From a virus: 38,341 nucleotides of DNA. Location of the stretch: the IMG/VR virus record IMGVR_UViG_3300027849_000023, positions 1-38,341 of that record. The stretch is one strand, 5' to 3'. A program made the position numbers and the translations under genes. This document shows positions 1,592 to 28,132 of this stretch, piece after piece (positions within the stretch are counted from its first letter, which is position 1; the number at the start of each line of letters is the position of its first letter). The notes under the pieces were generated by a model. That model ran no database searches. It was not told the DNA's origin and worked only from the letters and a program-made list of their open reading frames with translations.

Positions 1592-3307
1592 TTATCCGTC
1601 GCAGGATAGGCAGTCAGCCATACGACTTCCTAAATCTCCTTTAATTACTGAGTCAGTTCGTAAATAATACAGCGTTTTTACACCCAATTTCCACGCTTCC
1701 ATGTGGACTTGATTAATCCATTTAGGAGAATCGTTAGGATCAAATGAAAGGTTTAAAGATTGTGTTTGATCTATATATTTTTGGCGTTCTGCTGCTTGTT
1801 TTACTAATTCTAATTGGTTTGTTTCTGAAAAGGTTAAAAATACTTCTTTTTCTTCCGCAGATAAGATGCTATCTGGTAAGTTTAATACAGATCCACCTTC
1901 TTGTAACATTTGGTCCCACCATTTGTTCTTATTTTCACCCTTAGATTCAAGCAATTCTTCTAATACTTTATTTTTTCTAATAAATGTTCCTTTAGCACCA
2001 TTAAATGTGTAAACATTTGCAGGTAGGGGTTCAATACCCGCACTAATACCACCACAAATAACAGAATTTGATACTGTTGGCGCTACTGCTAATAAGTGAG
2101 TATTTCTCATACCTGTTCCTTTACACCATAAAGGTTCTCCATATTCTGCTGCTAAATCCATTGATGCGGATTCAGCTTCACTTCTTATTCTATTAAATAT
2201 ATTTCTTGTATGTACTGTAGAGGCAACAGAGTTAAATGGTAAGTTTTTCTGTTGTAAAAATGTATGCCATCCCATTACACCTAAACCTAAGGCTCTACCT
2301 TTTCTAGCATGTGAATGTGTTCTTTTTAAACTTTCTTTGCCGTTTGATTTATCTATAAATTCTTGCATTACACCATCTAGGAACCAAACCGCTGTTTGAA
2401 TGCAATCTGTGTCTCTATATTCTTCCCATTTAGCTAAGTTTAAAGATGATAAACAGCAAATGAATGAATGTTCTTCATCTGTAAATAAAGTGATTTCAGA
2501 GCATATATTAGTCATTGATACCTCTAAGTTGTTTACCCTATAAGCAATTGGATTATCTCTATTGACATTATCCTTATACATTATGTAAGGTTCTCCAGTT
2601 TCCATTCTTGATTTTAAAACTGTAGCCCATTTATTCATTGCTTCTGGGTCTCTCGCTTCTAATTTTCTCATAAATGAATCACCTACAACAACACATTGAT
2701 GTAAATTAAGACATTGTCTATTTGGATCACCCTTCGGTCTACGAATTTGTAAAAATTCTTCAATATCTCCATGTTCAATATCTAAATTAACAGATGCTGC
2801 TCCTCTTCTAACATTTCCTTGGTTAGTAGCAATAATTGATGAATCATATATTTTAGCCCACGGTACTACACCTTCACTTTTACCGTTTCCTGTAATCCCT
2901 TCTCCACGTTCTCTAATGCGAGATAACGAAATACCTACACCCCCGCCGGATGCTGTTAACTTCATTAGTTCCGCGTTAGTTAAACCGATTCCACGTATTG
3001 AATCGGGTGTATCGATACCAAAACACGAAATTGGTAATCCTCTATCAGTACCCATATTTGATATAACAGGGGATGCTAAACCAATCCAACCATTCCAAAT
3101 ATATTTAAAAAATTTACCTGCTAATTCTGGTTTTTTTAGTCTACTAGCTGATGCGTTTGCTACCCTTCTATATGCTGTTTTAACAGTTTCCCCAGGTAAT
3201 AAATAACCTTTAGAAATTGTTGCTAAAGAGATTTCATCCATCCATTCAGGGTATTCTTTACCTGGTGTCCATTGACTATAATCTACTTGTAACGCGTTGT
3301 TTTCCAT
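1592..3307 (-). CDS. nrdA: Ribonucleoside-diphosphate reductase large subunit (class I, short form)
   Basis: This subunit reduces ribonucleotides to deoxyribonucleotides for phage DNA synthesis. The ATG at 3307, four bases after the nrdB stop, gives 571 residues; a longer reading to 3415 would overlap nrdB and adds unrelated sequence. Catalytic residues are visible: Cys95 (ISCFG), the N-x-C-x-E motif with Asn267, Cys269 and Glu271, Cys284 of the active-site pair, the radical-relay Tyr-Tyr in TLYYLRT near the C-terminus, and a C-terminal CLSC pair for re-reduction. At 571 residues it is far shorter than E. coli or T4 NrdA (about 750-760), and the N-terminal ATP-cone is absent, so it should lack overall-activity inhibition by dATP. 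Short cone-less large subunits are known for flavobacterial class Id enzymes. Confidence 0.95.
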   Translation of the reverse strand: MENNALQVDYSQWTPGKEYPEWMDEISLATISKGYLLPGETVKTAYRRVANASASRLKKPELAGKFFKYIWNGWIGLASPVISNMGTDRGLPISCFGIDTPDSIRGIGLTNAELMKLTASGGGVGISLSRIRERGEGITGNGKSEGVVPWAKIYDSSIIATNQGNVRRGAASVNLDIEHGDIEEFLQIRRPKGDPNRQCLNLHQCVVVGDSFMRKLEARDPEAMNKWATVLKSRMETGEPYIMYKDNVNRDNPIAYRVNNLEVSMTNICSEITLFTDEEHSFICCLSSLNLAKWEEYRDTDCIQTAVWFLDGVMQEFIDKSNGKESLKRTHSHARKGRALGLGVMGWHTFLQQKNLPFNSVASTVHTRNIFNRIRSEAESASMDLAAEYGEPLWCKGTGMRNTHLLAVAPTVSNSVICGGISAGIEPLPANVYTFNGAKGTFIRKNKVLEELLESKGENKNKWWDQMLQEGGSVLNLPDSILSAEEKEVFLTFSETNQLELVKQAAERQKYIDQTQSLNLSFDPNDSPKWINQVHMEAWKLGVKTLYYLRTDSVIKGDLGSRMADCLSCDG

Positions 3308-3311
3308 ATTT

Positions 3312-4298
3312 TTAAAATAATGATCCAGCATCCCAATTTTGGACACCTTTTGAATAATTAGTAACTCTATTTGCAAAGAAATCTGTATGTTGTTTTCCTC
3401 CTGAAAGGTTATCAAACCAACTCATTCTTTGTACTGCTTCTTTATCAATACCATTTACTATAGCTCCATAACCTAAATCACCCATTTTAGTGTTTACTCT
3501 ATGTTTAATAAATGAAATTAAATCATATTTAGGGCAACCTGGTAGGTCTCCCATTTCATATACTTTATCAATAAAATCTAATTCTAATTTTAAAGATAAT
3601 CTTGCTGCTTCTTCAATATCTGCTTTTAATTCAGGTGTATTAAATTCTGGGTGTTCTTGTAATAAAGTTCTAAATAACCAACAACCAGCATTCGAATGTA
3701 GTGATTCATCTCTAATACTCCACTCAACTATTTGACCTACACCTTTAAGTTTATTATCTAATTTAAATGATAATAATACCGCAAATGATGAAAATAAATT
3801 CACTCCCTCGGTAAACGCAGAAAAAATTGCTAAAGATTTAGCTCTTTCATGCCAATTAGCCTCCCCCGTATGTGAATCTCTTACTGTTGTTAAAGCTTCT
3901 ATTTTAGCCATTGTAGCTTCATCTTCTAAAAACTCATCAAAATTATCTAATCCTAATTCTTCGTTTAACAAAGAATAGGCCTCAGCGTGTATAGTTTCAA
4001 ATGATGCAAATGTAACTGCCATCATAATTACTTCAGGCTTTCTAAACCATTTTGTAACTAAAGTTGACCAGTAATCATTTACTACTGTTTCAGTTTGAGC
4101 AAAACCTTTTAATATAGAACCAATAATGTTTTTTTCGGTTTTAGTTAAAATTTGCTTCCAATCATTAACATCACTCATCATTGGTACTTCTGTATGTAGC
4201 CAATGTGCTTGTTGTTGTTTCATCCAATAATCATGTGCCTCTGGGTATTCAAAAGGCTTGTAAACGATACGTTCCTGCAATAATGATGTTTTTGCCAT
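3312..4298 (-). CDS. nrdB: Ribonucleoside-diphosphate reductase small subunit (radical-generating)
   Basis: The protein has 328 residues and carries the dimetal-oxygen carboxylate site: Glu70, Glu101, His104, Glu164, Glu198 and His201, in the motifs FETIHAEAY and RDESLH. Tyr108 occupies the place of the radical Tyr of E. coli NrdB. The first ligand is Glu instead of the Asp84 of E. coli. From memory of the family, Glu at this place occurs in the Mn/Fe class Ic and the Mn2 class Id enzymes, the latter described from Flavobacterium johnsoniae; the retained Tyr argues against class Ic. It forms the holoenzyme with the NrdA encoded immediately downstream (four-base gap). The gap to the helicase gene upstream is 20 bases, so it belongs to the replication operon. 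Confidence 0.95.
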   Translation of the reverse strand: MAKTSLLQERIVYKPFEYPEAHDYWMKQQQAHWLHTEVPMMSDVNDWKQILTKTEKNIIGSILKGFAQTETVVNDYWSTLVTKWFRKPEVIMMAVTFASFETIHAEAYSLLNEELGLDNFDEFLEDEATMAKIEALTTVRDSHTGEANWHERAKSLAIFSAFTEGVNLFSSFAVLLSFKLDNKLKGVGQIVEWSIRDESLHSNAGCWLFRTLLQEHPEFNTPELKADIEEAARLSLKLELDFIDKVYEMGDLPGCPKYDLISFIKHRVNTKMGDLGYGAIVNGIDKEAVQRMSWFDNLSGGKQHTDFFANRVTNYSKGVQNWDAGSLF

Positions 4299-5704: not shown

Positions 5705-5719
5705 AACCTTTAATTTGTT

Positions 5720-6760
5720 TTATTGTTTATAAATTGGGAATTGAGTAAAAATATCATTTAACCATATGTCTACATTTCTAATCATCCCACCTAATTTATC
5801 TTCATTGTATAATTGTATAAATAATTCAGCATTAAACTCAGGTAACTCTTCAGAAATTAATTCATCAATGTGTTCTTTACCTTTATCATCAATCATAGGG
5901 ATACTTAAATCCATAACCTTATAATTAGTTTCAATTCTTGCTTGTTCCTGAACTATGCGTGAATATACGACGTGTTCCTTGAATTTCCTAGCAGATATAT
6001 CGAAAATGTCTTGAAGTGTTAATTCTTCTGTTTTTAACTCAGGAAACCTTTTAAATATGCCCTTAGCACCTAAACCTTTAATTCCTTTTATATTATCTGA
6101 ATTGTCACCTAATAATGTTTTATGTAAAATAAAGTTATGAGGTAATAAACCGAATTTTTCTTCTACTACTTTTGGAGTGTAATATTCTTTCTCCATTGGT
6201 CGGTATACAATAATTTTATCAGTTACTAATTGTAAGAAATCCTTATCACTTGATACTATAAAACAAGTTGAATCATGTTTTTCTACTAGTTTTTCAGCTA
6301 ACACGGCTATAATATCATCAGCTTCAACCTTATCGAGTATGGTGGTTTTAACGGGTAACAGCTTAAGATATTGGATTATACGTACAATTTGGTCGATTTT
6401 CGAATCATGTTCCTCTTCAATATTATCAAACGCTTCCCAATTAGTAATCCTTTGTAAATTTCTTGTTCCTTTGTACTCGGAGAGCAAGTTCTTACGATTT
6501 ACCGTAGAACCTGCCCCGTCGAATACTACATAAACAGATGTAGGTTGTGTTTGTCTAATCATTGCACCTAAAGAGCGAAAAAAACCTCCTAATCCCCCAA
6601 TATGTACCCCATCAGGATTAACCATATTCATCATAGCAAAGTTTCTAAAAAATAGATTTAAACCATCTAAAATTAATACTTTATCATGCCTGTTTGGAGT
6701 AGATTCCTCCCCTTGCTCCTGAACTTCGTCCAGCAACTTAAATAACTCTTTATGCTTCAT
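5720..6760 (-). CDS. rnh: 5'-3' exonuclease / flap nuclease, T4 RNase H-like
   Basis: The protein has 346 residues with the metal-binding acids of the FEN/5'-nuclease family in order: Asp32 (LILDGLNL), Asp81 (VVFDGAGS), Glu146, Asp148 and Asp149 (VEADD), Asp172 and Asp174 (SSDKDF), Asp219 and Asp222 (LLGDNSDN). A helix-hairpin-helix-like GIKGLGAKG follows at 226-234. The conserved Arg/Lys helical arch (RKNLLSEYKGTR) is present. It probably removes RNA primers from lagging-strand fragments. It is only nine bases downstream of uvsX. A 26-residue leader before the first motif is charged and of unknown role. Confidence 0.92.
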   Translation of the reverse strand: MKHKELFKLLDEVQEQGEESTPNRHDKVLILDGLNLFFRNFAMMNMVNPDGVHIGGLGGFFRSLGAMIRQTQPTSVYVVFDGAGSTVNRKNLLSEYKGTRNLQRITNWEAFDNIEEEHDSKIDQIVRIIQYLKLLPVKTTILDKVEADDIIAVLAEKLVEKHDSTCFIVSSDKDFLQLVTDKIIVYRPMEKEYYTPKVVEEKFGLLPHNFILHKTLLGDNSDNIKGIKGLGAKGIFKRFPELKTEELTLQDIFDISARKFKEHVVYSRIVQEQARIETNYKVMDLSIPMIDDKGKEHIDELISEELPEFNAELFIQLYNEDKLGGMIRNVDIWLNDIFTQFPIYKQ

Positions 6761-11136: not shown

Positions 11137-14100
11137 TTAACTTAATTGGTTTATTACATCTCCCTTTGCTTGAAGCTCAGCGGCATTAATTGCATTTCTT
11201 GTTTTTTGGCTTTGATTTCTATTAACTATAGGGATATCTACAGTTCCTGTTCCCGATGCTATTTTACCTTGTCCATCATTATAATTAATATAAACTGTTA
11301 CTGTAGCTCCAGGTTCTGGATTTACTGGGTCTTGGGTTACTGTAGCATACTGTTGTTGGTAATTAAAAGTTGGTTTTAAAGTTCCTGTTAATTTTGTATT
11401 TTTAGTTTCCCAATCGCCTGGTCCCTTGCCTGCGTTGTCTGCTTGAGCATTTTGATATGCTACGTTTATATTAAAGTCTGTGTAAAAATGGATGCTATCT
11501 ACATACCCACTAAAATTACCACCCCATTTAAACCCTAATGATTCAGCTAAAGTAACAATACCAGAGTTTAACCATGGTTCTCTTTCTTTTTTCATAAAAG
11601 TTTTCCCCTTTGGGTCTCTAATATTCATATCTACCGCACTATAATAATTATGTTTAGATTTACCTGGGGCCGCATTTGCTCCTTGACTTTGTAATTCTGC
11701 TGATTTTTGGTTTGTCCTTCCAATTGCATTTACATAAGCCGTGTACCCAGGGTATTTTTCATTTAAGGCTTCAAATAATGACCTCCACTTAGTTTGTACC
11801 GTGTTATTAAATTGTGATACTATATAATCAATAGAAACATCATTACCCCCCGCCCCTGATCTACTATCTACAATTCTAAATGCTTGGTCCGAAGGTATAG
11901 GACCCGAAGATTCATAAGTTTGAAATGTACTTTCAGAACTAAATTGTTTTGTAATCGCGGCACCTAATGGGAATGTTTCTACAGGTGATGTTGCTAATGT
12001 ATTAAGAGAAGTTGTCCAACTATTACCTGATATTTTATGGTTAACTTTTGTTATTATAAACTTAAGGGCCCTATCATATTGTTTTGGTAGGAAATTTTGT
12101 CTAATAGGTAAACTATTATAAATGAGTATACCAGACATTCCTTCTAAAGTTAATGATAAATCCACAGGTATAAAGCCTATTTTACCTGAAGGTTTTGAGT
12201 ATTTTTTCATTAATTGGTCAGTAGTAGTAACCATATAAGCTTTAAAAGCAGATTTACCTTGTCCTATAAAATCACTCTCCATTTTAGTATATAAAGTTTT
12301 ATCAGGAGAAATTGTCTTTACAGTACTATTAGTCCTTTGTAATTTAGAATCGAATGTAGTTTTTCCACCAAAAGCTCTAACTAACCATAAATTATAGTTA
12401 GAACCAAACATAGCTTTATAGTCATCTGTGGTTAGTCTAGCATTTTTCTTTTCTTCTTCAATTGCTTGTAGTATTTGCTTTCCTTTTTCTTTCCATTCTT
12501 CATATTCATAATTATCATATCCTTTTCCTAAAAACTTTATATTTTTAGCGGGACCATCCCCCCCATCTTCTATTGATTTTGCTTCTTTTGCTGATGTATT
12601 GATGCCTTTTGTTTTTCTATCTGCTACTACTTGTGGCATCCTAAAAGTTATAATTTTCCAAACATTGCTAACTGCTTCTATTGGATCAAACACACCATCA
12701 TCACCTAATATTAATCCACTAATAAAATTTCCTGTTTTATTTAATCCTTCTCTAAATGCACCAACTTCTTCCCCATCCTCCCAAGCTTTTTGTATTCGTT
12801 CTTGGTCTGTTGGTGTTCCTCCACCTGTTGCATCTACAATTTGTGCTGCAAATCTATCTAATAAGCCTACATTCCATTTAGAAAATGCAGTACTATCTTG
12901 ATTTTTTGTTTTACTAGTTCCACCTGTTGCTCCAATAGATATTTGTGTAGCATATGCAGGTGTTATTTTAGATGTAAATTTAATATCTGTTACAAAGTTA
13001 GATGTATTATTATTTACATTATATCCAAATACTTCTAAGGGGGTTGATGTATCTTTTGGTATTAGACCGGGTATTGGGTTTTGGTCTATAATAGTAACTA
13101 TATAATCGTCTTTTAGAATAGGTTCTAAATTACAAACATTACCTAAAGCAGCGTTTATGTCTTTACATAGCTCTTCTAAAAAACTAAACATACTTAAATC
13201 CCCATCTTTATTTTTACTATTTAAAAGTTTAGCTATATGTTCAAAGTTTATATAAATGTTCATTATTCTCCCAAATAATATGTCTCCATTTTGTACTACA
13301 CAATCACTTAAACTTTTAAAATAACTTGGGGTATAAATTATAGTCCCATCACCTTCAGAATCAAAAAATAAAGGTTTTATTAAACAAACCCTAGGATCTA
13401 AAGATACCATATTTGGAAAGGCACTCATAACATTATATTCGGCCCCGTCAAATTCTACTTGTTTTCTAGCTTTACCTGAAGTTGTCATTACTGTAGGACA
13501 GGTATTCTCTGAAAGGTATCTCATTAGTTGACCAAAAGTCATAAAATAATTATAATTTGATTGGTCAATTTCGGGGTAATTTTGTCCTGATTCTGCCCTA
13601 GATACTTCCCACGAAAAGAAATTTCTATCCTCTTCAGTTTCATTTTTACTAAAATCCCTATCTCTAACGTCTAAATATAACTGCTCAGACATTTTATTAC
13701 TACCGGCTCCCGCTATAATATTATTACCGTCAACATTTCCACCTACTTCTAATTTATTAAATACATCACCATTAGAAAAGGGCCAAGTAGCATCTTCAGT
13801 ATCTAATAGTATAGCATCTTCAGATGTTTGTGCTCCTGCTGCTGTAACGCTTAAAGATTCTATTACATCACCTATTGTAATAAGGTCTAATTTTATATCA
13901 TAAGTACCATCAGCATTAAACGTCCATTCAAAATTTGTTACTTTACCAAAAAAGGCATCATAATTAAAATCATATAAATTTCTATAATTTTTAATATCTT
14001 CAATCATTTCTACTTGAGAAACTCCATTTTGACTAAACCATTTATCCTCAATAATAGTATTTTCTACTTGTTGGTAAGACCCATCATTGGCTATGTATTT

Positions 14101-14820
14101 ATCCCATCCCCATTCTAACATGACAGAATATCCTAGTCTCATATAAACTAGTTCTAGCAATTCAAATTGGAATTTATTGTATGCTTTAAGTGTAATTGAA
14201 CATTTTCTTATTGATCCTCTATTTACACATTCTATCGATGCATCTATTAATCCAGGTGCTGGTGATAACCCAAAATCAGTTCCACCTAAACCATAACTAT
14301 TATTATTCCATAAACCATTACTTTTAGTTACACCCGACCTAAAATCATAAGTTCCGGAAGTTGTCGCATCTCTATTATATACACCATTTTCATCAACAGC
14401 TACCGCCGCTCCTTTTGAGGGGTTTACTGTTGATAATGTATTAAATAATACTGTTTGTTGTGCTAAAAGGTTTCCTACAAAGTTTTCTGGATTTGAAATT
14501 CCTATATCTTTTAGTCTATTTATTCCATCTGCTACTCCATCAGCATCGACATCAGTATTAAAATTAAATTTTTTAGTTATATCCTTACCATCATCATCTT
14601 TTTTTCCAGTTTTTTGTTGAATGTTAATATCGGTATTGGTGCTATCTCCTACTACATAAACAGAAGATGCCATCTTTAACCAAGCATTTCTATTATTTAG
14701 ATAATTTATTTGCTCAGTACTTCTAGTGCCTGAAAAGCCACTACCATGGGTTTTTTGACGGATATTTATTTGTTCCGATACTCTTAAGTCAAATTGTTCT
14801 CCTAATAAGTTTCCTCTCAT
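11137..14820 (-). CDS. Large baseplate hub-type protein with C-terminal M15 peptidase domain
   Basis: The protein has 1227 residues. The C-terminal region contains an M15-type peptidase: SKHNYYSAVD supplies zinc ligands His1057 and Asp1064, and LAESLGFKWGGNF followed by VDSIHF supplies Asp1108 and His1111. The KWGG and DxxH patterns match the L-alanyl-D-glutamate endopeptidase group (M15C, e.g. Listeria phage endolysins). A Gly/Asn/Val-rich beta tail of about 110 residues follows. The first 1000 residues look structural and probably form the hub. The protein would carry the peptidoglycan-cutting activity that T4 places in the gp5 lysozyme, locally opening the wall during infection. It is placed between the gp53-like gene and the final structural gene. 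The hub assignment is inferred; the peptidase domain is well supported. Confidence 0.8.
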   Translation of the reverse strand: MRGNLLGEQFDLRVSEQINIRQKTHGSGFSGTRSTEQINYLNNRNAWLKMASSVYVVGDSTNTDINIQQKTGKKDDDGKDITKKFNFNTDVDADGVADGINRLKDIGISNPENFVGNLLAQQTVLFNTLSTVNPSKGAAVAVDENGVYNRDATTSGTYDFRSGVTKSNGLWNNNSYGLGGTDFGLSPAPGLIDASIECVNRGSIRKCSITLKAYNKFQFELLELVYMRLGYSVMLEWGWDKYIANDGSYQQVENTIIEDKWFSQNGVSQVEMIEDIKNYRNLYDFNYDAFFGKVTNFEWTFNADGTYDIKLDLITIGDVIESLSVTAAGAQTSEDAILLDTEDATWPFSNGDVFNKLEVGGNVDGNNIIAGAGSNKMSEQLYLDVRDRDFSKNETEEDRNFFSWEVSRAESGQNYPEIDQSNYNYFMTFGQLMRYLSENTCPTVMTTSGKARKQVEFDGAEYNVMSAFPNMVSLDPRVCLIKPLFFDSEGDGTIIYTPSYFKSLSDCVVQNGDILFGRIMNIYINFEHIAKLLNSKNKDGDLSMFSFLEELCKDINAALGNVCNLEPILKDDYIVTIIDQNPIPGLIPKDTSTPLEVFGYNVNNNTSNFVTDIKFTSKITPAYATQISIGATGGTSKTKNQDSTAFSKWNVGLLDRFAAQIVDATGGGTPTDQERIQKAWEDGEEVGAFREGLNKTGNFISGLILGDDGVFDPIEAVSNVWKIITFRMPQVVADRKTKGINTSAKEAKSIEDGGDGPAKNIKFLGKGYDNYEYEEWKEKGKQILQAIEEEKKNARLTTDDYKAMFGSNYNLWLVRAFGGKTTFDSKLQRTNSTVKTISPDKTLYTKMESDFIGQGKSAFKAYMVTTTDQLMKKYSKPSGKIGFIPVDLSLTLEGMSGILIYNSLPIRQNFLPKQYDRALKFIITKVNHKISGNSWTTSLNTLATSPVETFPLGAAITKQFSSESTFQTYESSGPIPSDQAFRIVDSRSGAGGNDVSIDYIVSQFNNTVQTKWRSLFEALNEKYPGYTAYVNAIGRTNQKSAELQSQGANAAPGKSKHNYYSAVDMNIRDPKGKTFMKKEREPWLNSGIVTLAESLGFKWGGNFSGYVDSIHFYTDFNINVAYQNAQADNAGKGPGDWETKNTKLTGTLKPTFNYQQQYATVTQDPVNPEPGATVTVYINYNDGQGKIASGTGTVDIPIVNRNQSQKTRNAINAAELQAKGDVINQLS

Positions 14821-15146: not shown

Positions 15147-17330
15147 TTATTTTTTTACTGCTTGGTAGTTAGGTGTTTTTTCATTACCATCATAATTACT
15201 ATTAGTTCCATTAGTTAAACCAATATATCTTTCTTGTCCAAATGAGTTTGCAAAATTAGCTGACATACCGTTCCATTCCCCTGTAGCAAAGTTATTTTGT
15301 TGTACTCTTGGTACAAAATTATGGATAGGTTTAAAATTAAATCCTGATACCTTTACTATCATAGGTAATTCTTTTACACTTCCATCGTAATTTCCTTCAT
15401 CATTTATTGCTATTTCCCAAGGTGAATCTTGAGGTACATCTAAAGTTATACCTTCCATTATTCCTGTTTGTTCATAGCACCATCCTCCTACTGTTAATGT
15501 AATAAGATTTCCTTGCATATACCCGTTACTTGAATAATCAGGTGCAAGGGTTGAAGCTAAATAATTTAATTTTTGATACATTGGTATCAATTCTTGTTTA
15601 GATTGGGCTGCTACGGTCCAACCCATTGAGATACTCCTATCAAATCCTTCGTATTTATAAAAATCTTCTCCACGACCCATAAATTTTTGGGAACCCCAAT
15701 TAGCAGAGTAATTATCAGAAAAACTATCTATAAATGCTCTAAAATGAATGTATGTTTTTTTATTAGGGTCTTTATTATCTATTACACCTATTCTAAATTT
15801 TACTAAATCATTTTTTAAGGATGAATCTGTAACTTTATCAGAATTATACAAAGGCATAGCTGTAATCTTATCTAAAGCATTGCGTTGGTTTTCTAATACC
15901 CCAGTTCCATTTTTTCCTATAGAGTAACTTTTTATATTACCTCGTTTTCCCGGGTTTCCTAAGTTAACTCTCTGGTTTATGTTTTTATTTATGTAAGAAG
16001 GTGATTTAGGTATTTGGTCATTATTATCAACATCTGGTATTTTAGTTTCAAAACTTTCTAAATCAACCCCTGTATTCTTAGGTTGTTGTTCAAGTTCTTT
16101 ATGAGTCCATGTTGAAATAGCATTTATCTCATTTAATCCACTTTTAAATGCTTTATTACCTATTTTAGTTATTAATGAAAAGGGATCATTATTATTATCA
16201 TAGATACTAAATTGATTTTGAACTTTTCCATTAGGTAAAAAATTAGATTTTGCATTATCAATAGTTGTACCTAAAATAAAACTATTTCCTAAATAGGCAA
16301 CACTTGCACCAACCCTTAAAAATTGATCATTGTTTACTTCATTATTTAAACTTTGATCATTAACTGTTGGGCTTTGATTAATAGTACGAGTGTACCCTGT
16401 ATTTCCTCTTAAACCAGTAAATGAAGGTGTTGCTGGGCGAAATAAAGGAGGAGATGTAAGTGCATTAGCTGTTACCCCAAACACCGGAGGTCTGTTAAAT
16501 AAATTTTCGGTTGTTCCTGAAGACCAAGATATTGTAGGTTTTAAATTTAGTAAATTTGGGTTATTTGCTCCTGTTCTTTGGGATTGGAGCATATTAATAT
16601 TAGTTTTACCTACTCCTAAAGTTGCACCTGGTCCTCCTGTATATGAATATAAATTTAAATCGTTTGCCCCTGTTGTTCCACCTACAGTCTTATCCATTTT
16701 AGGTAAAAAACCTAATAGTCTACTTTTATTTCCTTCTGTACCCCCGTTTATTATTTGAACATAAGTAGGTAATGTTAACCCATTAGGGGTAGTTTGAATA
16801 TCACCCGCTTCCATTCCTTGCATCGGGTTAAATGGATTTAATCCTTGTTTATTTGGATAAATTCCTAACCCTACGCCTGCGGCCGCAGCTAATGTAGATA
16901 AAGGTGTATAAATACCTTGATTTAGTGCTAAATTGTCTTTAATAAATCTACCTATAGCAGATTGTGGAGATGATCCTTCATTACCCCCACCACCAGTATT
17001 TTGTGCCTCTGAATAGTTGATGTAACCTGTAGTTGTATCTACGTTAGATAACGATAATACATTTTGTTTTGCTATGAATAAAGGTCCTCTAATTGCACTT
17101 CCTCCAAAGTCAAAAAACATCTTTGTCAATCTAGATACATCATCTATTGCGTGTCCAGGAAAGAGAGTTCCACCCCTAAGTAAAAAATCTGGACCTCCTG
17201 TTCTAGAAATATCTTCTAAATCATTTGGTGGATTTTTAGTTACATAAGGTTGTCCACTCCATCCTCCGCCTACAGTATCTTTTCCATACCTTAATGACGT
17301 TAGATCTGTTTGTAGATCAACTAAGCCCAT
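15147..17330 (-). CDS. Tail-tube cap / baseplate initiator-like protein (gp48/gp54-like)
   Basis: The protein has 727 residues. The N-terminal 450 residues are Gly/Asn/Pro-rich and poorly structured in appearance. The C-terminal part (about 480-690) has a tube-like pattern: a segment FRAFIDSFSDNYSANWG, then GRGEDFYKYEGFDRSISMGWTV, a helix with MYQKLNYLASTLAPDYS, then LITLTVGGWCYE and an IHNFVPR end. Such a pattern fits the tail-tube-fold proteins gp48/gp54 that cap the baseplate and start the tube. In T4 genes 48 and 54 also follow the tape measure gene, which agrees with the position here. The exact T4 counterpart is not certain. Confidence 0.6.
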   Translation of the reverse strand: MGLVDLQTDLTSLRYGKDTVGGGWSGQPYVTKNPPNDLEDISRTGGPDFLLRGGTLFPGHAIDDVSRLTKMFFDFGGSAIRGPLFIAKQNVLSLSNVDTTTGYINYSEAQNTGGGGNEGSSPQSAIGRFIKDNLALNQGIYTPLSTLAAAAGVGLGIYPNKQGLNPFNPMQGMEAGDIQTTPNGLTLPTYVQIINGGTEGNKSRLLGFLPKMDKTVGGTTGANDLNLYSYTGGPGATLGVGKTNINMLQSQRTGANNPNLLNLKPTISWSSGTTENLFNRPPVFGVTANALTSPPLFRPATPSFTGLRGNTGYTRTINQSPTVNDQSLNNEVNNDQFLRVGASVAYLGNSFILGTTIDNAKSNFLPNGKVQNQFSIYDNNNDPFSLITKIGNKAFKSGLNEINAISTWTHKELEQQPKNTGVDLESFETKIPDVDNNDQIPKSPSYINKNINQRVNLGNPGKRGNIKSYSIGKNGTGVLENQRNALDKITAMPLYNSDKVTDSSLKNDLVKFRIGVIDNKDPNKKTYIHFRAFIDSFSDNYSANWGSQKFMGRGEDFYKYEGFDRSISMGWTVAAQSKQELIPMYQKLNYLASTLAPDYSSNGYMQGNLITLTVGGWCYEQTGIMEGITLDVPQDSPWEIAINDEGNYDGSVKELPMIVKVSGFNFKPIHNFVPRVQQNNFATGEWNGMSANFANSFGQERYIGLTNGTNSNYDGNEKTPNYQAVKK

Positions 17331-17572: not shown

Positions 17573-19876
17573 TTATTGTATTTGTATTACTCCTGGGTTT
17601 GCTATTACAGGTCTTGATCTTTGGTCTCGAACTAAGGATTCTAATAATCCTTCCATTCTACTATTATCTGCTGGGGCTGGCATTTGTATTTCGCCCGCAC
17701 CCGCTGACATAACGTCGTCACCTTTTGGAAATAAATTAGTTCCTGCTATAACTGTATCTTTGTTATTTAATGCTATTGCTCCTTCTGGGCCCATTAAAGT
17801 ACGGTTACCATACCCCCCACCATTTTTACCTGGTGACATCACATCATCTCCAGTTAAATATTTAGCTGCCATTGAAGCAATACCTGCTGCTGCAATAATA
17901 CCTAAAGGAATCCCAATTCCAAATGGTATTTTAGAGAATGAAGATATAGCACTAAAAATAGCTGTACCTACAGTTTTAACTAAACCTTTTGATTCTAAAA
18001 GATTTCGTTTTCCTTGTATTCCTAGCTGAACTGCTTGTATGCCTGCAATTACTCCCTGGGTTACTTGTATACCTTTAGATATAGCATAATAAGCTGTATA
18101 TGCTCCAACTATAGTAGCAATAATAGCCGACATAACACTTAATTCCTCATTTGTGCCTGCTATAAACCCAAATGCTTCTGATACGCTGTCACCTATAACT
18201 TTAAAACCTTCTGTGATTGGCATTAATAATATTCCTAGTGCAGCTATTGCTGGGATTAATATATCTACTATAGGTGCTACAATTTGAAGAATAGGGCCTG
18301 CTAAACCAATAAATACTTGTTTTAATTTATCCACTGCTGCTGCTAAATTTTCTTGAACACTAACTTGTTTCTTTAAATCAGATACACTTTGTTTTGCTAA
18401 TTTTGCTTTTATTTGATCTTGTGATAAACCTTTAGCTTGTAAGTCATTAATTTGAGTTTCTCTTAAAGCTACTTCTTCTCCTGATAAACCTACTAATTGT
18501 TCTTGGGTAAATAACATTTGACCTAATTCTTCTCTACCCATTCCTACAGCTCCAGCTAATGCCTCCTGTTCTATTCTATTCATAGAGGCAAATTCCGCTG
18601 CTGTTCCTGCTTGTTCTGCTATTTCTTTGGCTACCGTAGCTAAATCGTTATTTAGAGCCGCGGTTCTTGCTTTTTCTAAATTAATATCTTTTCCTAATAA
18701 TAATTCTGCTTCTAATTCTTTTGAAATTGAAGATTCGAAATCAAGTAAACTACCTGCTATGTCATCAACTTTACCTAATTCTAAACCTAATGATTTAGCA
18801 ACACTTACTGCCTTACCTATTTCACTAGCACTCATTCCAAGTGATATTGTAGTAGCAGCTGATACTTTGCTTATGTCTTTTAATACTTCCTTTTCATTTA
18901 AGGATACTCCTAATTTTGTTCCTTGTATTTTAGCTTGTGCTAAAATTTCACCTGTATTTGATTTTAAATCCCCACCTGTAGCATTTGTGATAGCATTAAC
19001 TCCTTTTAATTCTTCATATGTTAACCCTGCATATTTATGCATTTGTTGGAAAAATACTAAATTTTCATCTACAGTAGTGTTAGTAATACCTAATTCTGAA
19101 TTTATTGCCATTAAGGCTTCACCTAATCCCTTAGCTGTTAATTTAGCTGACATTGAGGTAGTAGCTACCTTTTGCATTTCATTTTGCAATTGAGCAGCTT
19201 CGTGATATGTAAGATTCATACCTTTAGCCATCTCACCGACTTGTTTATCGGTTGCAACTACTGCTTTATATAAAGCTACCATTGCTAACTCACCTAATCT
19301 TTGAACACTTACTATATCTTTAAAATTTCCAGATAATAATGCAGATAAGGTACCTGTTTTATCTATTTCATCAGCAGCAGATTTTAAATTATCCCTAAAT
19401 ATTTCGGTTAAAGATTTACTCTTTTGTAGTTTTTTAAACCTAATTTCTAACTTTTTATTTATTGCTTCTTGGGCATCTATTTCTGAAAGCTCAGAGGTTA
19501 AAAGTTCTTTCTGTTTGTCCGTTAACTTACCAGCTAACATTTCTTGTTTTACTAGTAATCTTGCTTTACTAAAAGCTATTTGTTCGGAAGATTTAGCTAA
19601 GTCTGCTTGGGTTGCTAACCCTAAACTAACTTTAGTTCCTAAATCTATTAAATTGTTTGTATTTTTTACTACTGCTTTAAGATCAGCAGCTAAACCACGT
19701 TGCAGGGTTTTACCTATAATTTCTACACCACTATTAAGTGCATCTGCCCCATCAACCGCGTCTTCAAATGATGCAACTAACTTATCCCCAATGCTACTAA
19801 CGGCATCTAGGATATAACCTAATTCTTCATTGATTTTTTTGGCTTCCTTTTGACCCTTACCATCACCTATAGGCAT
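17573..19876 (-). CDS. Tail tape measure protein
   Basis: The protein has 767 residues and is mostly long helix, rich in Ala, Lys, Glu and Leu. Hydrophobic segments lie near 520-555 (GLAGPILQIVAPIVDILIPA), about 585-600, and 655-675 (GIGIPLGIIAAAGIASMAA). These are typical for a tape measure that spans the tail tube and is ejected into the host envelope. The C-terminal tail carries two short repeats, GDDVMSPG and GDDVMSAG, around a segment with GPEGAIALNNKDTVIAGTNLF. Length sets tail length in this family; at roughly 0.15 nm per residue the tail would be about as long as that of T4. It follows the gp26-like/frameshift pair, the classical place for this gene. Confidence 0.85.
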   Translation of the reverse strand: MPIGDGKGQKEAKKINEELGYILDAVSSIGDKLVASFEDAVDGADALNSGVEIIGKTLQRGLAADLKAVVKNTNNLIDLGTKVSLGLATQADLAKSSEQIAFSKARLLVKQEMLAGKLTDKQKELLTSELSEIDAQEAINKKLEIRFKKLQKSKSLTEIFRDNLKSAADEIDKTGTLSALLSGNFKDIVSVQRLGELAMVALYKAVVATDKQVGEMAKGMNLTYHEAAQLQNEMQKVATTSMSAKLTAKGLGEALMAINSELGITNTTVDENLVFFQQMHKYAGLTYEELKGVNAITNATGGDLKSNTGEILAQAKIQGTKLGVSLNEKEVLKDISKVSAATTISLGMSASEIGKAVSVAKSLGLELGKVDDIAGSLLDFESSISKELEAELLLGKDINLEKARTAALNNDLATVAKEIAEQAGTAAEFASMNRIEQEALAGAVGMGREELGQMLFTQEQLVGLSGEEVALRETQINDLQAKGLSQDQIKAKLAKQSVSDLKKQVSVQENLAAAVDKLKQVFIGLAGPILQIVAPIVDILIPAIAALGILLMPITEGFKVIGDSVSEAFGFIAGTNEELSVMSAIIATIVGAYTAYYAISKGIQVTQGVIAGIQAVQLGIQGKRNLLESKGLVKTVGTAIFSAISSFSKIPFGIGIPLGIIAAAGIASMAAKYLTGDDVMSPGKNGGGYGNRTLMGPEGAIALNNKDTVIAGTNLFPKGDDVMSAGAGEIQMPAPADNSRMEGLLESLVRDQRSRPVIANPGVIQIQ

Positions 19877-19911: not shown

Positions 19912-19922
19912 TAAAAAAAAAT

Positions 19923-20228
19923 TTATTTATAACCACTTTTACCTTTAAAACTATTATCACCCTTTAAAAAGTCTGGAGTGTTTACTTTACCTTCTGAGTC
20001 TATTACATTTGATTGACCATTTGAGTTTGAGGCATCTTTTTGTGCTTTTGATTCTTGTTCATAAAATTCACTTATTTGATGAAAAGTATATTTTCTTAAC
20101 CAAAGAGGCATATTATATACAGTTTGATGGTCATAACCACCTTTACCGTGAAATACTATTTCGTGAATTTGTTTAAATATGGATAATCTAATATTAGAGG
20201 CTGTTTCCGAGCTCAGGCCAAAAAAAGT
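19923..20228 (-). CDS. gp51-like tail/baseplate assembly segment in the +1 frame (no clear start of its own)
   Basis: This frame opens directly after a TAA at 20231-20229 and runs to the stop at 19923. The first ATG (20111) would give only 62 residues, but about 33 codons before it read like protein and share its style (IFKQIHEIVFHGKGGYDHQ, then YNMPLWLRKYTFHQISEFYEQE). There is no ATG, GTG or TTG start in that upstream part; only a CTG. The simplest reading is that ribosomes translating the gp26-like gene shift +1 on the T7 run at 20226-20220 and enter this frame, giving a 336-residue fusion. In T4, gene 51 (hub assembly) follows and overlaps gene 26. The tail after residue 70 is polar and probably flexible. 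Confidence 0.6.
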   Translation of the reverse strand, partial: TFFGLSSETASNIRLSIFKQIHEIVFHGKGGYDHQTVYNMPLWLRKYTFHQISEFYEQESKAQKDASNSNGQSNVIDSEGKVNTPDFLKGDNSFKGKSGYK

Positions 20229-20934
20229 TTAGGCCAATTGAGACCTCTACCTCCTTCCCGTTATCCAATACATAGGATAAATCTACATCCGGGGATGTAG
20301 TTTTAATGTGATCTCTAAAAGCTCTAGCATCTCTAGCTAAAAAGCCATTATCTACGAATTCTCTAACGGTTTTTTTCTCTGAATCCCCATTTACTGAAAG
20401 GATCATATATTTCATTCTAGTAGATAATTCTGCACTAGAATTTTTATCTAATTTTTTTAGACCTTGAACTTCTCTATTAATACTATTTTCATCATTCCCC
20501 GTTAATATTTTATAAGTTAAGTCAACTTTAGAATGGGGTAGTTTAAAACTAAATTCATTTTGACCCTCTGTTATTAAAGAAACGTCAAATTCTTTATTTT
20601 CTATCTGCCCTAAATCTATTGTATGTTCTTCTCCTGAAATCATAACTTTGTAATCAGCACCATATCCTAAAATACGGGTAGCTATCATTACAGCATTTTT
20701 ATCTCCTACTATTAGGTCTTTTTGGTTAACTCCTTCTGTTACTATTACAGAATCTATTAACTTATCAATTACTGTTCCATTTTTAATATATGCCGAGTTA
20801 GTAAGAATATCTTCTTCTTTAGCAGTCATATATTTTACTTCTACTTTACCACTACGTAATATGTGTTCTTTAGGATAAACTAATCCTTTGGAGGGTAAAT
20901 CTACTGTTTCAGTAGGAAATTTAAATTCACTCAT
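20194..20934 (-). CDS. 26: Baseplate/tail assembly protein, gp26-like
   Basis: The protein has 246 residues. It opens with FKFPTETVDLPSKGLVYP, followed by VEVKYMTAKEEDILTN and a region with DKNAVMIATRILGYGADY; this order is typical of the T4 baseplate gp26 family, where an MT-x-x-EED-type segment follows a LPSKG start. The region near residue 160-190 is charged and helical. Located just upstream of the tape measure gene, it fills the position of tail assembly chaperones. Eight residues before its stop the mRNA has the run A-AAC-UUU-UUU-UGG, where a +1 shift would extend the protein by 98 residues. No late motif precedes it; the terminator after the tail tube gene lies 46 bases upstream. Confidence 0.75.
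   Translation of the reverse strand: MSEFKFPTETVDLPSKGLVYPKEHILRSGKVEVKYMTAKEEDILTNSAYIKNGTVIDKLIDSVIVTEGVNQKDLIVGDKNAVMIATRILGYGADYKVMISGEEHTIDLGQIENKEFDVSLITEGQNEFSFKLPHSKVDLTYKILTGNDENSINREVQGLKKLDKNSSAELSTRMKYMILSVNGDSEKKTVREFVDNGFLARDARAFRDHIKTTSPDVDLSYVLDNGKEVEVSIGLNFFWPELGNSL
20217..20231 (-). promoter_or_regulatory. Candidate +1 programmed frameshift site
   Basis: On the coding strand TAAACTTTTTTTGGC. In the gp26-like frame it reads AAC TTT TTT TGG. A +1 slip of the Phe tRNA from TTT to the overlapping TTT leads to GGC and into the open downstream frame. The overlap between the two frames is only about 35 bases and contains this run. A -1 slip would instead reach TGA after two codons. 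Confidence 0.5.
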
Positions 20935-20979: not shown

Positions 20980-21007
20980 TAAAAAAAAGCCTGGCGTAAG
21001 CCAAGCT
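20980..21007 (-). terminator. Intrinsic terminator after the tail tube gene
   Basis: On the minus strand AGCTTGGC (21007-21000), loop TTAC, GCCAGGCT (20995-20988), then eight T residues (20988-20981). All eight pairs form in RNA, with one U-G wobble; on the plus strand the stem would have a C-A mismatch. This shows that the functional direction is minus. Confidence 0.8.
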
Positions 21008-21032: not shown

Positions 21033-21521
21033 TTAGAAATTTAAAACACAGTAATCTGGTTGTACAGTTAATTGTATTTCTTGTGCAGCATTTTCAGTAT
21101 CCCAATTGAAATCTCCAAAGTTAGCTTCTGTAATTAAAGCTCCTTTAATGACCCATTCAGATACGATATCACCTACAGGTCCTAATACGTTCATAGTTAA
21201 ATCTTTTTTATAGAAATCACTATATCCATCTCTACCTGTTACTGATTCATGATGTAATCTGACCCACTCCATACATGCTTGAGCACCACTAGGAGTAATT
21301 GGATCAAATAACGTCATTTGAATTGTTCCCCAAGTTGTTTTTCCTTTAACAAACCTTTGAACGTTTATATGATTTAAAGGTACTGTTCCTTGAGTTAGTG
21401 TTACAGCTCCGATTCCCTTAATTTGATAAGAAGGAATTCCATCTACATACATTATGAATCTATTCTTTTGTTTAGGTTCAAAAGCTGTGAAAAATATTTC
21501 GTTTGGGTCTAATACTGCCAT
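21033..21521 (-). CDS. 19: Tail tube protein, gp19-like
   Basis: The protein has 162 residues, close to the 163 of T4 gp19. Motifs include NRFIMYVDGIPSYQIKG near the start, WGTIQMTLFDPITPSGAQACMEWVR in the middle and LTVQPDYCVLNF at the end, all typical of the tail tube family. Subunits stack as hexamers to form the inner tube through which DNA passes. The gene follows the sheath gene, as in T4 (18-19), has its own late motif 21 bases upstream and ends with a strong terminator. This suggests high, separately tuned expression. Confidence 0.9.
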   Translation of the reverse strand: MAVLDPNEIFFTAFEPKQKNRFIMYVDGIPSYQIKGIGAVTLTQGTVPLNHINVQRFVKGKTTWGTIQMTLFDPITPSGAQACMEWVRLHHESVTGRDGYSDFYKKDLTMNVLGPVGDIVSEWVIKGALITEANFGDFNWDTENAAQEIQLTVQPDYCVLNF

Positions 21522-21567: not shown

Positions 21568-23340
21568 TTATGCAGGGAAATCAACTCCTGTTGGTAATAC
21601 ATTGAAATCTAGGATTATGAATTCTGCTGTTTTAGTTGGTTGTAAATAAATAGCACCTACTAATTCGTTTCTATCAATAACATCCGGTGTATTGTTAGTT
21701 TCGTTCATTACAACTTTAAACGCGTATAAACCTTGTCTTTGTTGTACTGATTCCAAGTATGGGTTAACTTGTGTCAAGAAGTTATTTCTTGTACTAATTG
21801 TATTTTGCTCAAACACTAAGTTATCTGATACTTGTACTATAAATGATTTAACTGCTATTAACAATCTTCTTACATTTACTCTATCTAATGCACTTGCTCT
21901 ACGTTGTAATGTTTTTTGTCCAAATACTACAACTCCACTTGCTGGAAATGTTGCTATTGGATTTACATTTCCACTATATAAAGTGTCTCTTTGTCCTGAT
22001 GTTAATCTTTGTTCTGCTCTAATAACATTTCCTAAAGCACCTCTAACTAAGCCTGCTGGTGCAAACCATGGTTCAGATGATGCGTCTGTAAATGAATATA
22101 CGCCTGGAATAAACGCTGACGCTGGGGACCAAGTGGTCATGCCGCTAGTCGGGTCTATTGCTTGTAACCACGGCCAATACGCAGCTGCATAACTTGAATC
22201 AAATGCTGTAGCACTTGCTACTGTTTGTGATACTGTTTTACCATATGCTGATGGGTCAACTACTGTTATACAATCTTGTCTATTTTCTGCTAATGCTACT
22301 AATGAATTAACTTGAACTAACGAGGTTGTAAATGATGAATCTCCAATTAATCCTGGTGCAACTACTACATTAAAATTATAATCATCTTTATTGTTAAGTA
22401 AAGATATTGATGCTGAGTAATCTGTTGCCGTTAATCCCTGTATATTCGTGTCTGTTATCGCGCTATTAAATTTAGCTGGCGACATTGATGCTTGAACATT
22501 TTCTCCTGTTGCTCCCGTGAATGATCCTGAAGATGCTACTGGGATGAATTTTGAATATAATGTTCCTGCTGATCCGCTACTTACTCCTCCAGCATTGTTG
22601 AAGAAATTTGGTGTTGGAGTTAATACAGATTTAACATTAATATATCTACTTCTATTTAAGAAATCTCCTGTTGCTTTTACGTAATAATCTGCTCCATCTT
22701 GAGCTATTTCGTAAGTAGTGTTACCTAATACTCTTGCAATATAGTTTGGTTGAAACGGATCTAATGATAAATCATTCCATGTTTCTAAAATTGATGGTGA
22801 GTTTGAAGTATCATTACCTTGTCTTACTATTATAGAGAAAGTACCTGATCCTGTATTAACACCAGCAATTTGCCATCTAACGTTATCTGCTGAACCTAAT
22901 GATAAAGTACCTGATGCTGCATCCGCTGTTTGGTAATTATTCATTATAGTTCCTTCAGAAATTGTTTGTAATACAATAGATTCTGATGTTTCAGTATTCA
23001 TGATACCACTATTTCCAGATCCTGCAGTACTACCTGAAGTAAATGCTGGAGCGAAATCACCATGAGTAACTCTTGTTACTAATAATGAAGTTCCACCTTG
23101 TCTAAAATAATTGTTAGCCGCCGTAGAGGTTAAGTAAGAATATTGTAGAGAAGCACTTTCAACTGTTTGACCAAATATTGCTTGGTATTCACTGAATGAA
23201 GTAACTAATGTAGGCTTTTCTACAGGTCCTTTTACTGCTGGTCCTATGATTGCTGCACCGAAATTTAATGGGTTTTGTTGGATAAATGATTGATCATTTT
23301 CTCTTGCCAATACGCCTGGAGATATTAATGTTTCTGCCAT
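21568..23340 (-). CDS. 18: Tail sheath protein, gp18-like
   Basis: The protein has 590 residues. The N-terminus (SPGVLARENDQSF, then GAAIIGPAVKGPVEKPTLVTS and FSEYQAIFG) is characteristic of contractile sheath proteins. The C-terminal part contains the conserved sheath core: VVFGQKTLQRRASALDRVNVRRLL, FVFEQN-type helix, and an end with ELVGAIYLQPTKTAEFIILDFNVLP. The middle (about 90-330) is a Ser/Thr/Gly-rich variable domain exposed on the tail. It forms the sheath that contracts on infection. The gene has a late motif 32 bases upstream and precedes the tube gene. Confidence 0.93.
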   Translation of the reverse strand: MAETLISPGVLARENDQSFIQQNPLNFGAAIIGPAVKGPVEKPTLVTSFSEYQAIFGQTVESASLQYSYLTSTAANNYFRQGGTSLLVTRVTHGDFAPAFTSGSTAGSGNSGIMNTETSESIVLQTISEGTIMNNYQTADAASGTLSLGSADNVRWQIAGVNTGSGTFSIIVRQGNDTSNSPSILETWNDLSLDPFQPNYIARVLGNTTYEIAQDGADYYVKATGDFLNRSRYINVKSVLTPTPNFFNNAGGVSSGSAGTLYSKFIPVASSGSFTGATGENVQASMSPAKFNSAITDTNIQGLTATDYSASISLLNNKDDYNFNVVVAPGLIGDSSFTTSLVQVNSLVALAENRQDCITVVDPSAYGKTVSQTVASATAFDSSYAAAYWPWLQAIDPTSGMTTWSPASAFIPGVYSFTDASSEPWFAPAGLVRGALGNVIRAEQRLTSGQRDTLYSGNVNPIATFPASGVVVFGQKTLQRRASALDRVNVRRLLIAVKSFIVQVSDNLVFEQNTISTRNNFLTQVNPYLESVQQRQGLYAFKVVMNETNNTPDVIDRNELVGAIYLQPTKTAEFIILDFNVLPTGVDFPA

Positions 23341-26418: not shown

Positions 26419-26447
26419 CAAAAAAAAAGAGGCGCAAAAGCGCCTCT
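26419..26447 (-). terminator. Strong intrinsic terminator after the major capsid gene
   Basis: On the minus strand AGAGGCGC (26447-26440), loop TTTT, GCGCCTCT (26435-26428), then a run of T residues to 26421. The stem is perfect and GC-rich. It ends the capsid transcript 30 bases after the stop codon. Confidence 0.9.
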
Positions 26448-26476: not shown

Positions 26477-28132
26477 TTATAGAGTATTTAAACCTGAAAT
26501 TTCGATAGTACCATAAAATTCTGGTCTTACCATTTTCTTAGCATATCTAGTCAATAGACCTTTTCTAGGCACAAACGTGTCTGGATCATATACTAATGGA
26601 GTCATAATTAATGGAATATATGGAGCAAATACAGCACCACTTTCTAAGAATTGTCCACCTCTAAATCCTAATAACATAATGTTAGAAGTCATGTAAGGGT
26701 TTTTGTAAACTTTATATCTTCCGTTTAATTGACCTACTTTCTGTACACCAAATGCATAAGAAGCTTTAGCAGCATCTCCATCTGAATCAGATGCAAATCC
26801 TGGTATAGATTCAATTATTGTAGCAACTGTTGGAGAAACTACCATAAAGTTAGCACCACCTCTTAAAGTTTTCTGGTGGATAATGTTACTTAACTTTTGA
26901 ACTTTAGTTCCTAATGTTTGGAACCATTGTCCTTGAGAATTGTAAAATCCTAGATCACTTACAGCACCTGCGCTTGTAATAGATGTGTTGTTAACAGCTG
27001 ACCATACTTCAGTTCCTGCAGCAGCGTTAGTAATTAACATACTTAAGATTTCTAAGTCAATTTCTAATGAAATGTACTCGCTTAAGATTGAAGTTAATTC
27101 AGCTTCAGCATCTAATGCATGATATGCATTTAAATCCTGTGCAAATTCTGGCGTCCATACAGCTTTCAATTTCTTAGTTTTAGCAACGATAGCAGATGAT
27201 TTCATCTGTACATTGATTTCTGGAATTGTTTGTGCTGGACAACAGTAAGAACCTGTTAGGTTATTGTTTCCGTTTGGTAATGAATTACCCGCTTCAAAGT
27301 CACCTCTGTATTGATCAGTTGGTTGTAAAGAAAAAGAAACTAATGCACTTTCAGTAGCTCCACCTGTAACCCAATCAGAAGCAGATACTACAAATGAGAT
27401 CTGTCCGTTTTGGCTTGTACTAAATGCATTTACTTGAATTGCAGTAGCCGAACCTGAATAAAGTTGGAATGATTTTACAGCAGTAGCGTCTATGTATGCA
27501 AAACTTGAAGTGTTAAAAGTAATTAATCTATACTCGTTGTTAGCAACTGATGCAGAATAATCTGAATCATAATCTAGGTTACCCCAAGATGCAGTAGCAG
27601 CAGCAACACCAGCTTTTAAGCTTGAAGTTGTTTGTGTAGAATATGAGAATCTACCTGATCCGTATAATCCACCTGCGTTTGTATTACCAAATGGGTTAGT
27701 AGCAACGCTACCGTTTCCATAAAGTGATTGACCTGCAGTAAATGGTGCTTTGTTAGTACCATATTGGAAGTCTAGGAAGAATACAAGACCAGAAGGTAAG
27801 TTCATTGGTTGAACCGAAACAAATTCCTTTGCAGCGATTTGACCAAATACTTTTCTTACTAATGGTAAAGCAACTCCTGCCCATTGACCACCAATGTTTA
27901 CAGCAGTTTGTGATTGAAATGTACCTGAAGATGCATTTCCTCCACCTGTTTGAGAAGATTCGACAACAAGTTGTTTAGCTTGGTTTTCAAGAATGATACC
28001 CATGTTACTTTTATGGGAACCATCTAAACCTTCTAATAAACCTGTTTTTTCCCATTTTGTGGCTAACCTAGCAGCATCACTCTGTACCGAGTGATATGGG
28101 TTAGCGCTTTCTAATAGAGAATTTAAGCTCAT
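26477..28132 (-). CDS. 23: Major capsid protein, gp23-like
   Basis: The protein has 551 residues. The N-terminus aligns by eye with T4 gp23: KWEKTGLLEG (T4 KWKPLLEG) and IILENQAKQ (T4 KIFENQEKD), then GQWAGVALPLVRKVFGQIAAKEFVSVQPMNLPSG leading into the HK97-fold core. A prohead-protease site should remove the first 50-60 residues; candidates are IILE-N (after Glu49) and VVE-S (after Glu58). Residues about 200-300 form a Ser/Thr-rich insertion, as in gp23. The end is KKMVRPEFYGTIEISGLNTL. A variant late motif touches the ATG, and a strong terminator follows. Confidence 0.95.
   Translation of the reverse strand: MSLNSLLESANPYHSVQSDAARLATKWEKTGLLEGLDGSHKSNMGIILENQAKQLVVESSQTGGGNASSGTFQSQTAVNIGGQWAGVALPLVRKVFGQIAAKEFVSVQPMNLPSGLVFFLDFQYGTNKAPFTAGQSLYGNGSVATNPFGNTNAGGLYGSGRFSYSTQTTSSLKAGVAAATASWGNLDYDSDYSASVANNEYRLITFNTSSFAYIDATAVKSFQLYSGSATAIQVNAFSTSQNGQISFVVSASDWVTGGATESALVSFSLQPTDQYRGDFEAGNSLPNGNNNLTGSYCCPAQTIPEINVQMKSSAIVAKTKKLKAVWTPEFAQDLNAYHALDAEAELTSILSEYISLEIDLEILSMLITNAAAGTEVWSAVNNTSITSAGAVSDLGFYNSQGQWFQTLGTKVQKLSNIIHQKTLRGGANFMVVSPTVATIIESIPGFASDSDGDAAKASYAFGVQKVGQLNGRYKVYKNPYMTSNIMLLGFRGGQFLESGAVFAPYIPLIMTPLVYDPDTFVPRKGLLTRYAKKMVRPEFYGTIEISGLNTL

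Follow-up and report, generated by a model that had tools for sequence, protein, structure and literature searches.

The tail assembly chaperone (TAC) gene of a T4-like myophage was located on a 38,341-base IMG/VR virus fragment (the window, i.e., the whole stretch of DNA analysed), and a +1 slip at AAC-UUU-UUU-UGG would very probably extend its short product, TAC-N, to the long product TAC-NC, as judged from the comparison of homologous sequences. It had been proposed in a preliminary description of the window that a +1 frameshift on Phe codons extends a gp26-like protein encoded ahead of the tape measure gene, and this is strongly supported by the relatives collected here. Thereby, the frameshifts described for this protein pair, with T4 named as the exception (PMC5009743), are extended by a widespread +1 case.

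The chaperone locus and its reading frames

On its minus strand the window encodes terminase, a gp23-type capsid protein, sheath and tube, which together form a T4-type structural module; the chaperone gene of this module sits between the tail tube gene and the tape measure gene, the latter being assigned by position (Table 1). The putative tape measure gene gave no significant family match of its own in PHROG and Pfam searches, and it corresponds in position to the genes annotated as tape measure in Flavobacterium phage Immuto, Bacillus phage SP-15 and Listeria phage LIS04. Two large ORFs lie downstream of it, at 15147-17330 (727 aa, no PHROG or Pfam match) and at 11137-14820 (1227 aa). Runs of eight to nine T on the minus strand are found only between genes (26420-26428, 20981-20988 and 19913-19921) and never inside them.

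Table 1. Coordinates of the chaperone locus and neighbouring genes in the window.
Feature	Position	Strand	Basis
TAC-N, gp26-like tail assembly chaperone, short form, 246 aa	20194..20934	-	phrog_150, weak PF12322, AlphaFold, Foldseek
Putative frameshift site AAC TTT TTT TGG (E, first Phe, slip and A-site codons)	20218..20229	-	
Putative P-site slip codon, the second TTT of AAC-TTT-TTT-TGG	20221..20223	-	conserved in relatives
TAA in the +1 frame, immediately 5' of the site	20229..20231	-	frame reading
TAA stop of the short product TAC-N	20194..20196	-	
TAC-C, +1-frame extension, 98 codons (GGC...AAA) and stop TAA	19923..20219	-	conservation, third-position substitutions
TAC-NC, predicted 336-aa fusion via +1 frameshift	19923..20934	-	aligned with 44 relatives
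Probable tape measure protein, 767 aa, next gene downstream	17573..19876	-	position and length
Tail tube protein, next gene upstream	21033..21521	-	phrog_4542 E 1e-24
Tail sheath protein	21568..23340	-	phrog_23 E 1e-74, PF04984
T4-type major capsid protein	26477..28132	-	PF07068 E 1e-73

The gp26-like ORF ends with GGC CTA AAC TTT TTT TGG CCT GAG CTC GGA AAC AGC CTC TAA. In the +1 frame a TAA stands directly before ACT TTT TTT GGC and the frame is then open until the stop at 19923; this TAA therefore rules out +1 reading from any start further upstream. The +1 frame opens 32 bases 5' of the first base of the gp26-like stop, or 35 bases if the stop is included, which is the count given in the preliminary description. 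The other readings made there for the overlap hold as well: the run AAC-TTT-TTT-TGG lies within it, a +1 shift gives a fusion of 336 residues, a -1 shift meets a stop immediately (LFLA*), and no usual start codon occurs in the first 39 codons of the downstream frame, its first ATG being 39 codons in. No ATG, GTG or TTG was found in the +1 frame of the window upstream of or near the site. The T at 20220 and the slip codon together form the tetranucleotide UUU-U, which would be read as one Phe step. Of 33 window genes inspected for an in-frame TTT TTT T, a single one contains it.

Identity of the two protein parts

TAC-N matched phrog_150 (baseplate hub) with an E-value of 5.5e-7 and the Pfam family PF12322 (T4_baseplate) with an E-value of 0.0015, which is below the curated cut-off, while the homologue from LIS04 matched PF12322 with an E-value of 5e-24. 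The AlphaFold model of TAC-N has a pLDDT of 91, and a Foldseek search with it retrieved phage T4-like baseplate hub proteins with E-values down to 2e-20. Against the PDB, the top Foldseek probability was 0.51 for the HK97 chaperone 2ob9 (E 0.98, not significant) and YqbN (3klu) reached 0.15; a PDB sequence search yielded nothing relevant, direct hhalign comparison of TAC-N with gp26 and gp51 gave no significant match, and a scan with the TAC-N of Xanthomonas phage XacN1 as query found nothing. From the family matches and the gene order we infer that the locus encodes a tail assembly chaperone pair, TAC-N and TAC-NC.

In T4, the match to PF12322 covers most of gp26 and also most of gp51, and both proteins therefore carry the domain of the upstream ORF. 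For this reason the downstream part cannot be equated with the whole of gp51. The "gp51-like partner" of the preliminary description holds for the C-terminal end of gp51 and is given up for the complete protein: the profile of TAC-C from the +1 loci matched that of TAC-C from a related clade with a -1 layout (hhalign E 2e-6), and the latter matched residues 200-244 of gp51 (E 3e-5), whereas direct profile comparison of the +1 TAC-C with gp51 gave no significant match. By these profiles, the +1 product would correspond to the C-terminal extension of gp51. The model of TAC-C, folded apart from TAC-N (pLDDT 78), shows three helices and a flexible tail. A match of TAC-C to DUF6760 (19926-20219, E 0.0058, below the cut-off) was discarded, as the sequences of the relatives gave no such match; DUF6760 was not mentioned in the literature searched.

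Conservation of the +1 layout

Relatives were collected by seven scans with TAC-N queries and by tblastn of phage records, resulting in 183 loci of the +1 type, of which 126 remained after removal of those at least 90% identical; loci from MAGs are kept outside this count. The frame that is open beyond the stop is the +1 frame in all 126 non-redundant loci, a recurrence that excludes a chance occurrence. The extension comprises 65-114 codons with a median of 91 (121 loci with a complete end), and the short product ends 4-11 codons past the slip codon. Upstream of the two Phe codons the +1 frame shows frequent stops and low amino-acid identity; from these codons on it contains no stops and the residues FF-G-L-T are highly conserved. 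Within TAC-C the substitutions fall mainly on third codon positions (28/20/53% at positions 1/2/3).

The layout is present in the isolates Immuto, Microcystis phage Mel-JY01, SP-15, LIS04 and Streptococcus phage GXN1, and none of these five genomes carries a frameshift annotation. Bacterial MAGs contain it as well, in seven binned contigs, of which five are named as Flavobacteriaceae, Flavobacteriales (two), Winogradskyella or Saprospiraceae. In the window, an SD-like motif precedes only 2 of 33 genes and the start regions are A/T-rich, as in Bacteroidota. Because of the few SD-like motifs and the relatives in Flavobacteriales bins, a host from the Bacteroidota is probable.

The persistence of the T run in relatives had been suggested as a check, and the run is kept: codon 2 of the site is TTT or CTT in 125 of the 126 loci. 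Two findings had been named that would speak against the frameshift. A downstream gene starting with ATG exists only in the loci L104 and L109, both of which lack the T run, and no case with both genes in one frame was seen among the relatives examined.

Variants of the slip site and codon choice

TTT-TTT-TGG is the commonest site (105/126 loci), with TTT-CTT-TAC, TTT-CTT-TGG, CTT-TTT-TGG, TTC-TTT-TGG, TTT-TTT-TAC and TTT-TTT-TTC as further variants. Most loci have TGG as the A-site codon; TAC or TTC also occurs, and the group of SP-15 and LIS04 has AGT, CAC or CGT. In all variants but L084, and in part LIS04, the tRNA on codon 2 can re-pair one base further on (UUU-U, UUU-C or CUU-U). The L084 site (TTT-CTA-TTC) is better suited to a slip on the first Phe codon, and that of LIS04 (TTT-TTT-AGT) suits a codon-2 slip in part only. 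TTC-TTT-TGG counts against a first-codon slip in its clade because TTC shifted by one base reads TCT. Taken by these variants, the second codon of TTT-TTT-TGG is the likely place of the slip.

Codon choice was compared with counts expected from the codon usage of each locus, and since the P values of this comparison take the loci as independent and ignore shared ancestry, the effect sizes given here are the safer guide: codon 1 is TTT in 119 of 123 loci (84.6 expected), codon 2 is TTT in 120 of 120 Phe codons (82.9 expected), and the codon preceding the run ends in T in 2 of 116 (74.8 expected). These three biases bear on the site itself. Behind it, Pro is encoded by CCT in 122 of 123 cases (44.9 expected) and Asp by GAC in all 79 (14.7 expected). 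By these two choices the +1 frame retains Leu and Thr, which speaks for its translation immediately behind the slip. The control codons three to six places upstream showed far weaker biases. Both the slip codons and the +1 frame are under selection.

Candidate stimulators were searched for on both sides of the site. There was no signal for RNA structure downstream (mean z -0.3 to -0.7, about as upstream), and the relatives share no conserved purine block or prfB-like SD element in the 18 bases upstream. The motif GAGGAGG, which is found upstream in many relatives, was considered as SD stimulator or as internal start and rejected: it encodes Glu-Glu-Val, lies more than 20 bases from the site and is not conserved.

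Alternative explanations

TAC-C could be a separate protein, made without frameshifting from an internal or downstream non-AUG or weak start. An ATG, GTG or TTG is present upstream in the +1 frame in 81 of the 126 loci, Mel-JY01 is annotated accordingly in GenBank with a separate TTG-started CDS for the downstream part, and for T4 gene 26 an internal product, 26', is annotated. However, 45 of the 126 loci, including the window, have no such codon upstream of the site, and in 35 of 126 a +1 stop lies at most 12 bases from it. To the question raised in the preliminary description, whether the frame always stays open without ATG, the answer is that it is open in all 126 loci and lacks any upstream ATG, GTG or TTG in these 45. 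The commonest candidate, a TTG at -11 from the first Phe codon (33/85 loci), is ATT GG(N) read out of frame. Furthermore, conservation of the +1 protein begins at the FF codons, ahead of any start, and both relatives with an ATG-started gene have lost the slippery run. A separate start is therefore improbable.

Alternatively, the ribosome could move two bases back, as described for phage Mu, because this opens the same frame as a +1 step and a run of seven T would let tRNA-Phe re-pair at that place. At TTC-TTT-TGG and TTT-CTT-TAC, however, the tRNA would pair poorly after a -2 shift, with TCT or TTC, but would stay paired after a +1 shift. A -2 shift thus fits the variants poorly and is improbable.

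Transcriptional slippage on the T run, giving mRNAs that are one U short and a fusion made by normal reading, is the least probable of these three, even though most loci have seven consecutive T. The +1 layout is kept where the run is interrupted (TTTCTTTAC, TTCTTTTGG, TTTCTTTGG and TTTCTATTC, with a longest run of 3-4), and an eighth T at -4, which would favour slippage, is avoided, as seen in the codon preceding the run. Homopolymer runs are prone to sequencing and assembly errors, but an artefact hiding a gene in one frame is refuted by the 183 loci that share the layout, isolates and loci without a long run included, and has a negligible probability.

Homologues with a -1 frameshift or with separate genes

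A related clade of 80 IMG/VR loci around Methylophilales phage Melnitz, belonging to T4-like phages of the Kyanoviridae type, has a homologous TAC-C and a poly-T run near the end of TAC-N, and here the open frame is the -1 frame. Its site is T-TTT-TTN and the base before the run is always T, whereas loci of the +1 type almost always have C, G or A at this place. The chaperone of Melnitz is annotated as two separate genes. Homologous chaperones in which the -1 frame is open behind a T-TTT-TTN heptamer are those of L091 and L114-L193, and XacN1 and the huge phage LR756511 also read as -1.

In L104 (IMGVR_UViG_3300001528_000621) and L109, TAC-C is a separate, ATG-started ORF just past the TAC-N stop. 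Their sites read TTC-TTG-TAT and TTC-CTT-TGG-CCA, i.e., the slippery run is lost, and in the tree both are nested in the +1 clade beside Immuto. They suggest that the fusion can be replaced by a separate gene. In T4, genes 26 and 51 were already described as separate in the preliminary account; they indeed are, and they lie on opposite strands.

The occurrence of +1, -1 and two-gene homologues therefore indicates one T4-like family with several routes to the same protein pair. Mapped on the tree, in which the long branches of XacN1, LR756511 and T4 are placed with little certainty, the mode of expression requires 4 changes as compared with 17 for shuffled labels. It is conceivable, and put forward here as a tentative model with somewhat less than even chances, that the family moved among -1, +1 and separate genes, that the base before a shared poly-T run sets the direction, and that the +1 shift in Bacteroidota hosts operates without SD element, RNA structure or stop codon. 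In such a model a T before the run would create the -1 heptamer T-TTT-TTN, and C, G or A would leave UUU-U for a +1 slip. As the homologues span +1, -1 and separate genes, the factor that sets the direction of the shift is testable by exchange of one base.

Proposed mechanism and known systems

Normal translation would produce TAC-N with 246 aa. A fraction of the ribosomes would slip by +1 with the peptidyl-tRNA-Phe on the second UUU of AAC-UUU-UUU-UGG, which would re-pair with the overlapping UUU one base downstream (UUU-U). The slip would probably occur while the in-frame Trp codon UGG in the A site awaits its tRNA, and GGC would be read next. Many copies of TAC-N together with few of TAC-NC would coat the tape measure protein, as do gpG and gpGT of phage lambda, and the C-terminal domain of TAC-NC would recruit the tail tube protein. 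Infrequent shifting would be appropriate for a chaperone of which TAC-N is required in large excess over TAC-NC.

The lambda G/GT genes are alike in that a short product and a frameshifted C-terminal extension are encoded between the tail tube and tape measure genes. They differ in the direction of the shift, which is -1 in lambda and would be +1 in the window, and in the protein family, TAC-N belonging to the gp26/PF12322 family of T4. TAC-N is also about 100 aa longer than lambda gpG. The ratio of short to long chaperone in lambda was reported to be approximately 30:1 (PMC5009743). T4 gp26 and gp51 are of the same family as TAC-N, and the C-terminal extension of gp51 is related to TAC-C through the -1 clade, but T4 uses two genes where the window has a single gene and a predicted +1 shift.

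The gene prfB, encoding RF2, also uses a +1 slip, on CUU-U and in some low-GC genomes on UUU-U (PMC12421855). In contrast to prfB, which combines an in-frame A-site stop with an upstream SD-like element, the site described here has the sense codon UGG and no conserved SD-like element. CUU-U, UUU-U and CCC are the most +1-prone prfB codons, and CCC and UUU are ranked next after CUU-U by PRFect (PMC10885494); low-GC prfB genes with TTT as shift codon were reported (PMC12421855). For Flavobacterium johnsoniae it was reported that the prfB shift is inefficient and that SD signals are rarely used (PMC12421855), so that an SD-free site would be in keeping with the presumed host. A simple +1 site of this kind probably works in hosts where Shine-Dalgarno signals play little part.

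Both T4-like TACs and some +1 shifts in tailed phages are already known. Vladimirov, Gautam and Davidson (2022, Virology 566:9-15) reportedly identified TACs in T4-like phages. As cited from that work, some T4-like phages have a short gene and a fused long TAC gene (PMC10885494), and poly-T -1 signals occur in T4-like TACs (PMC12846349). Tailed phages were described to use -1, -2 or +1 shifts for these proteins with T4 as the exception (Atkins 2016, PMC5009743). In the haloarchaeal myovirus HSTV-2, an unrelated phage, a shift in the same kind of gene was called "very likely +1", and the Listeria phages PSA, A118 and A500, also unrelated, shift by +1 on CCC, i.e., on proline codons (Atkins 2016, PMC5009743). 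The latter shifts are located in tail shaft genes, in PSA also in a capsid gene (PMC5009743), whereas the window has its site in the chaperone gene and on Phe codons. An earlier description of the +1 site was not found in the literature searched, to which Vladimirov 2022 did not belong; within that scope a +1 case in a T4-like TAC is apparently unreported. Within the gene family, the +1 shift would join the -1 frameshift of the related clade and is therefore not the first one.

Annotation of the chaperone in public genomes

The public annotations of Immuto, SP-15, LIS04 and Mel-JY01 miss or truncate the long chaperone. The TAC-C frame is unannotated or covered only by a short 3' fragment in L082 (Immuto, 5727-5950), L089 (SP-15, 3242-3440), L087 (LIS04, 5712-5925) and L085 (GXN1, 5733-5997).
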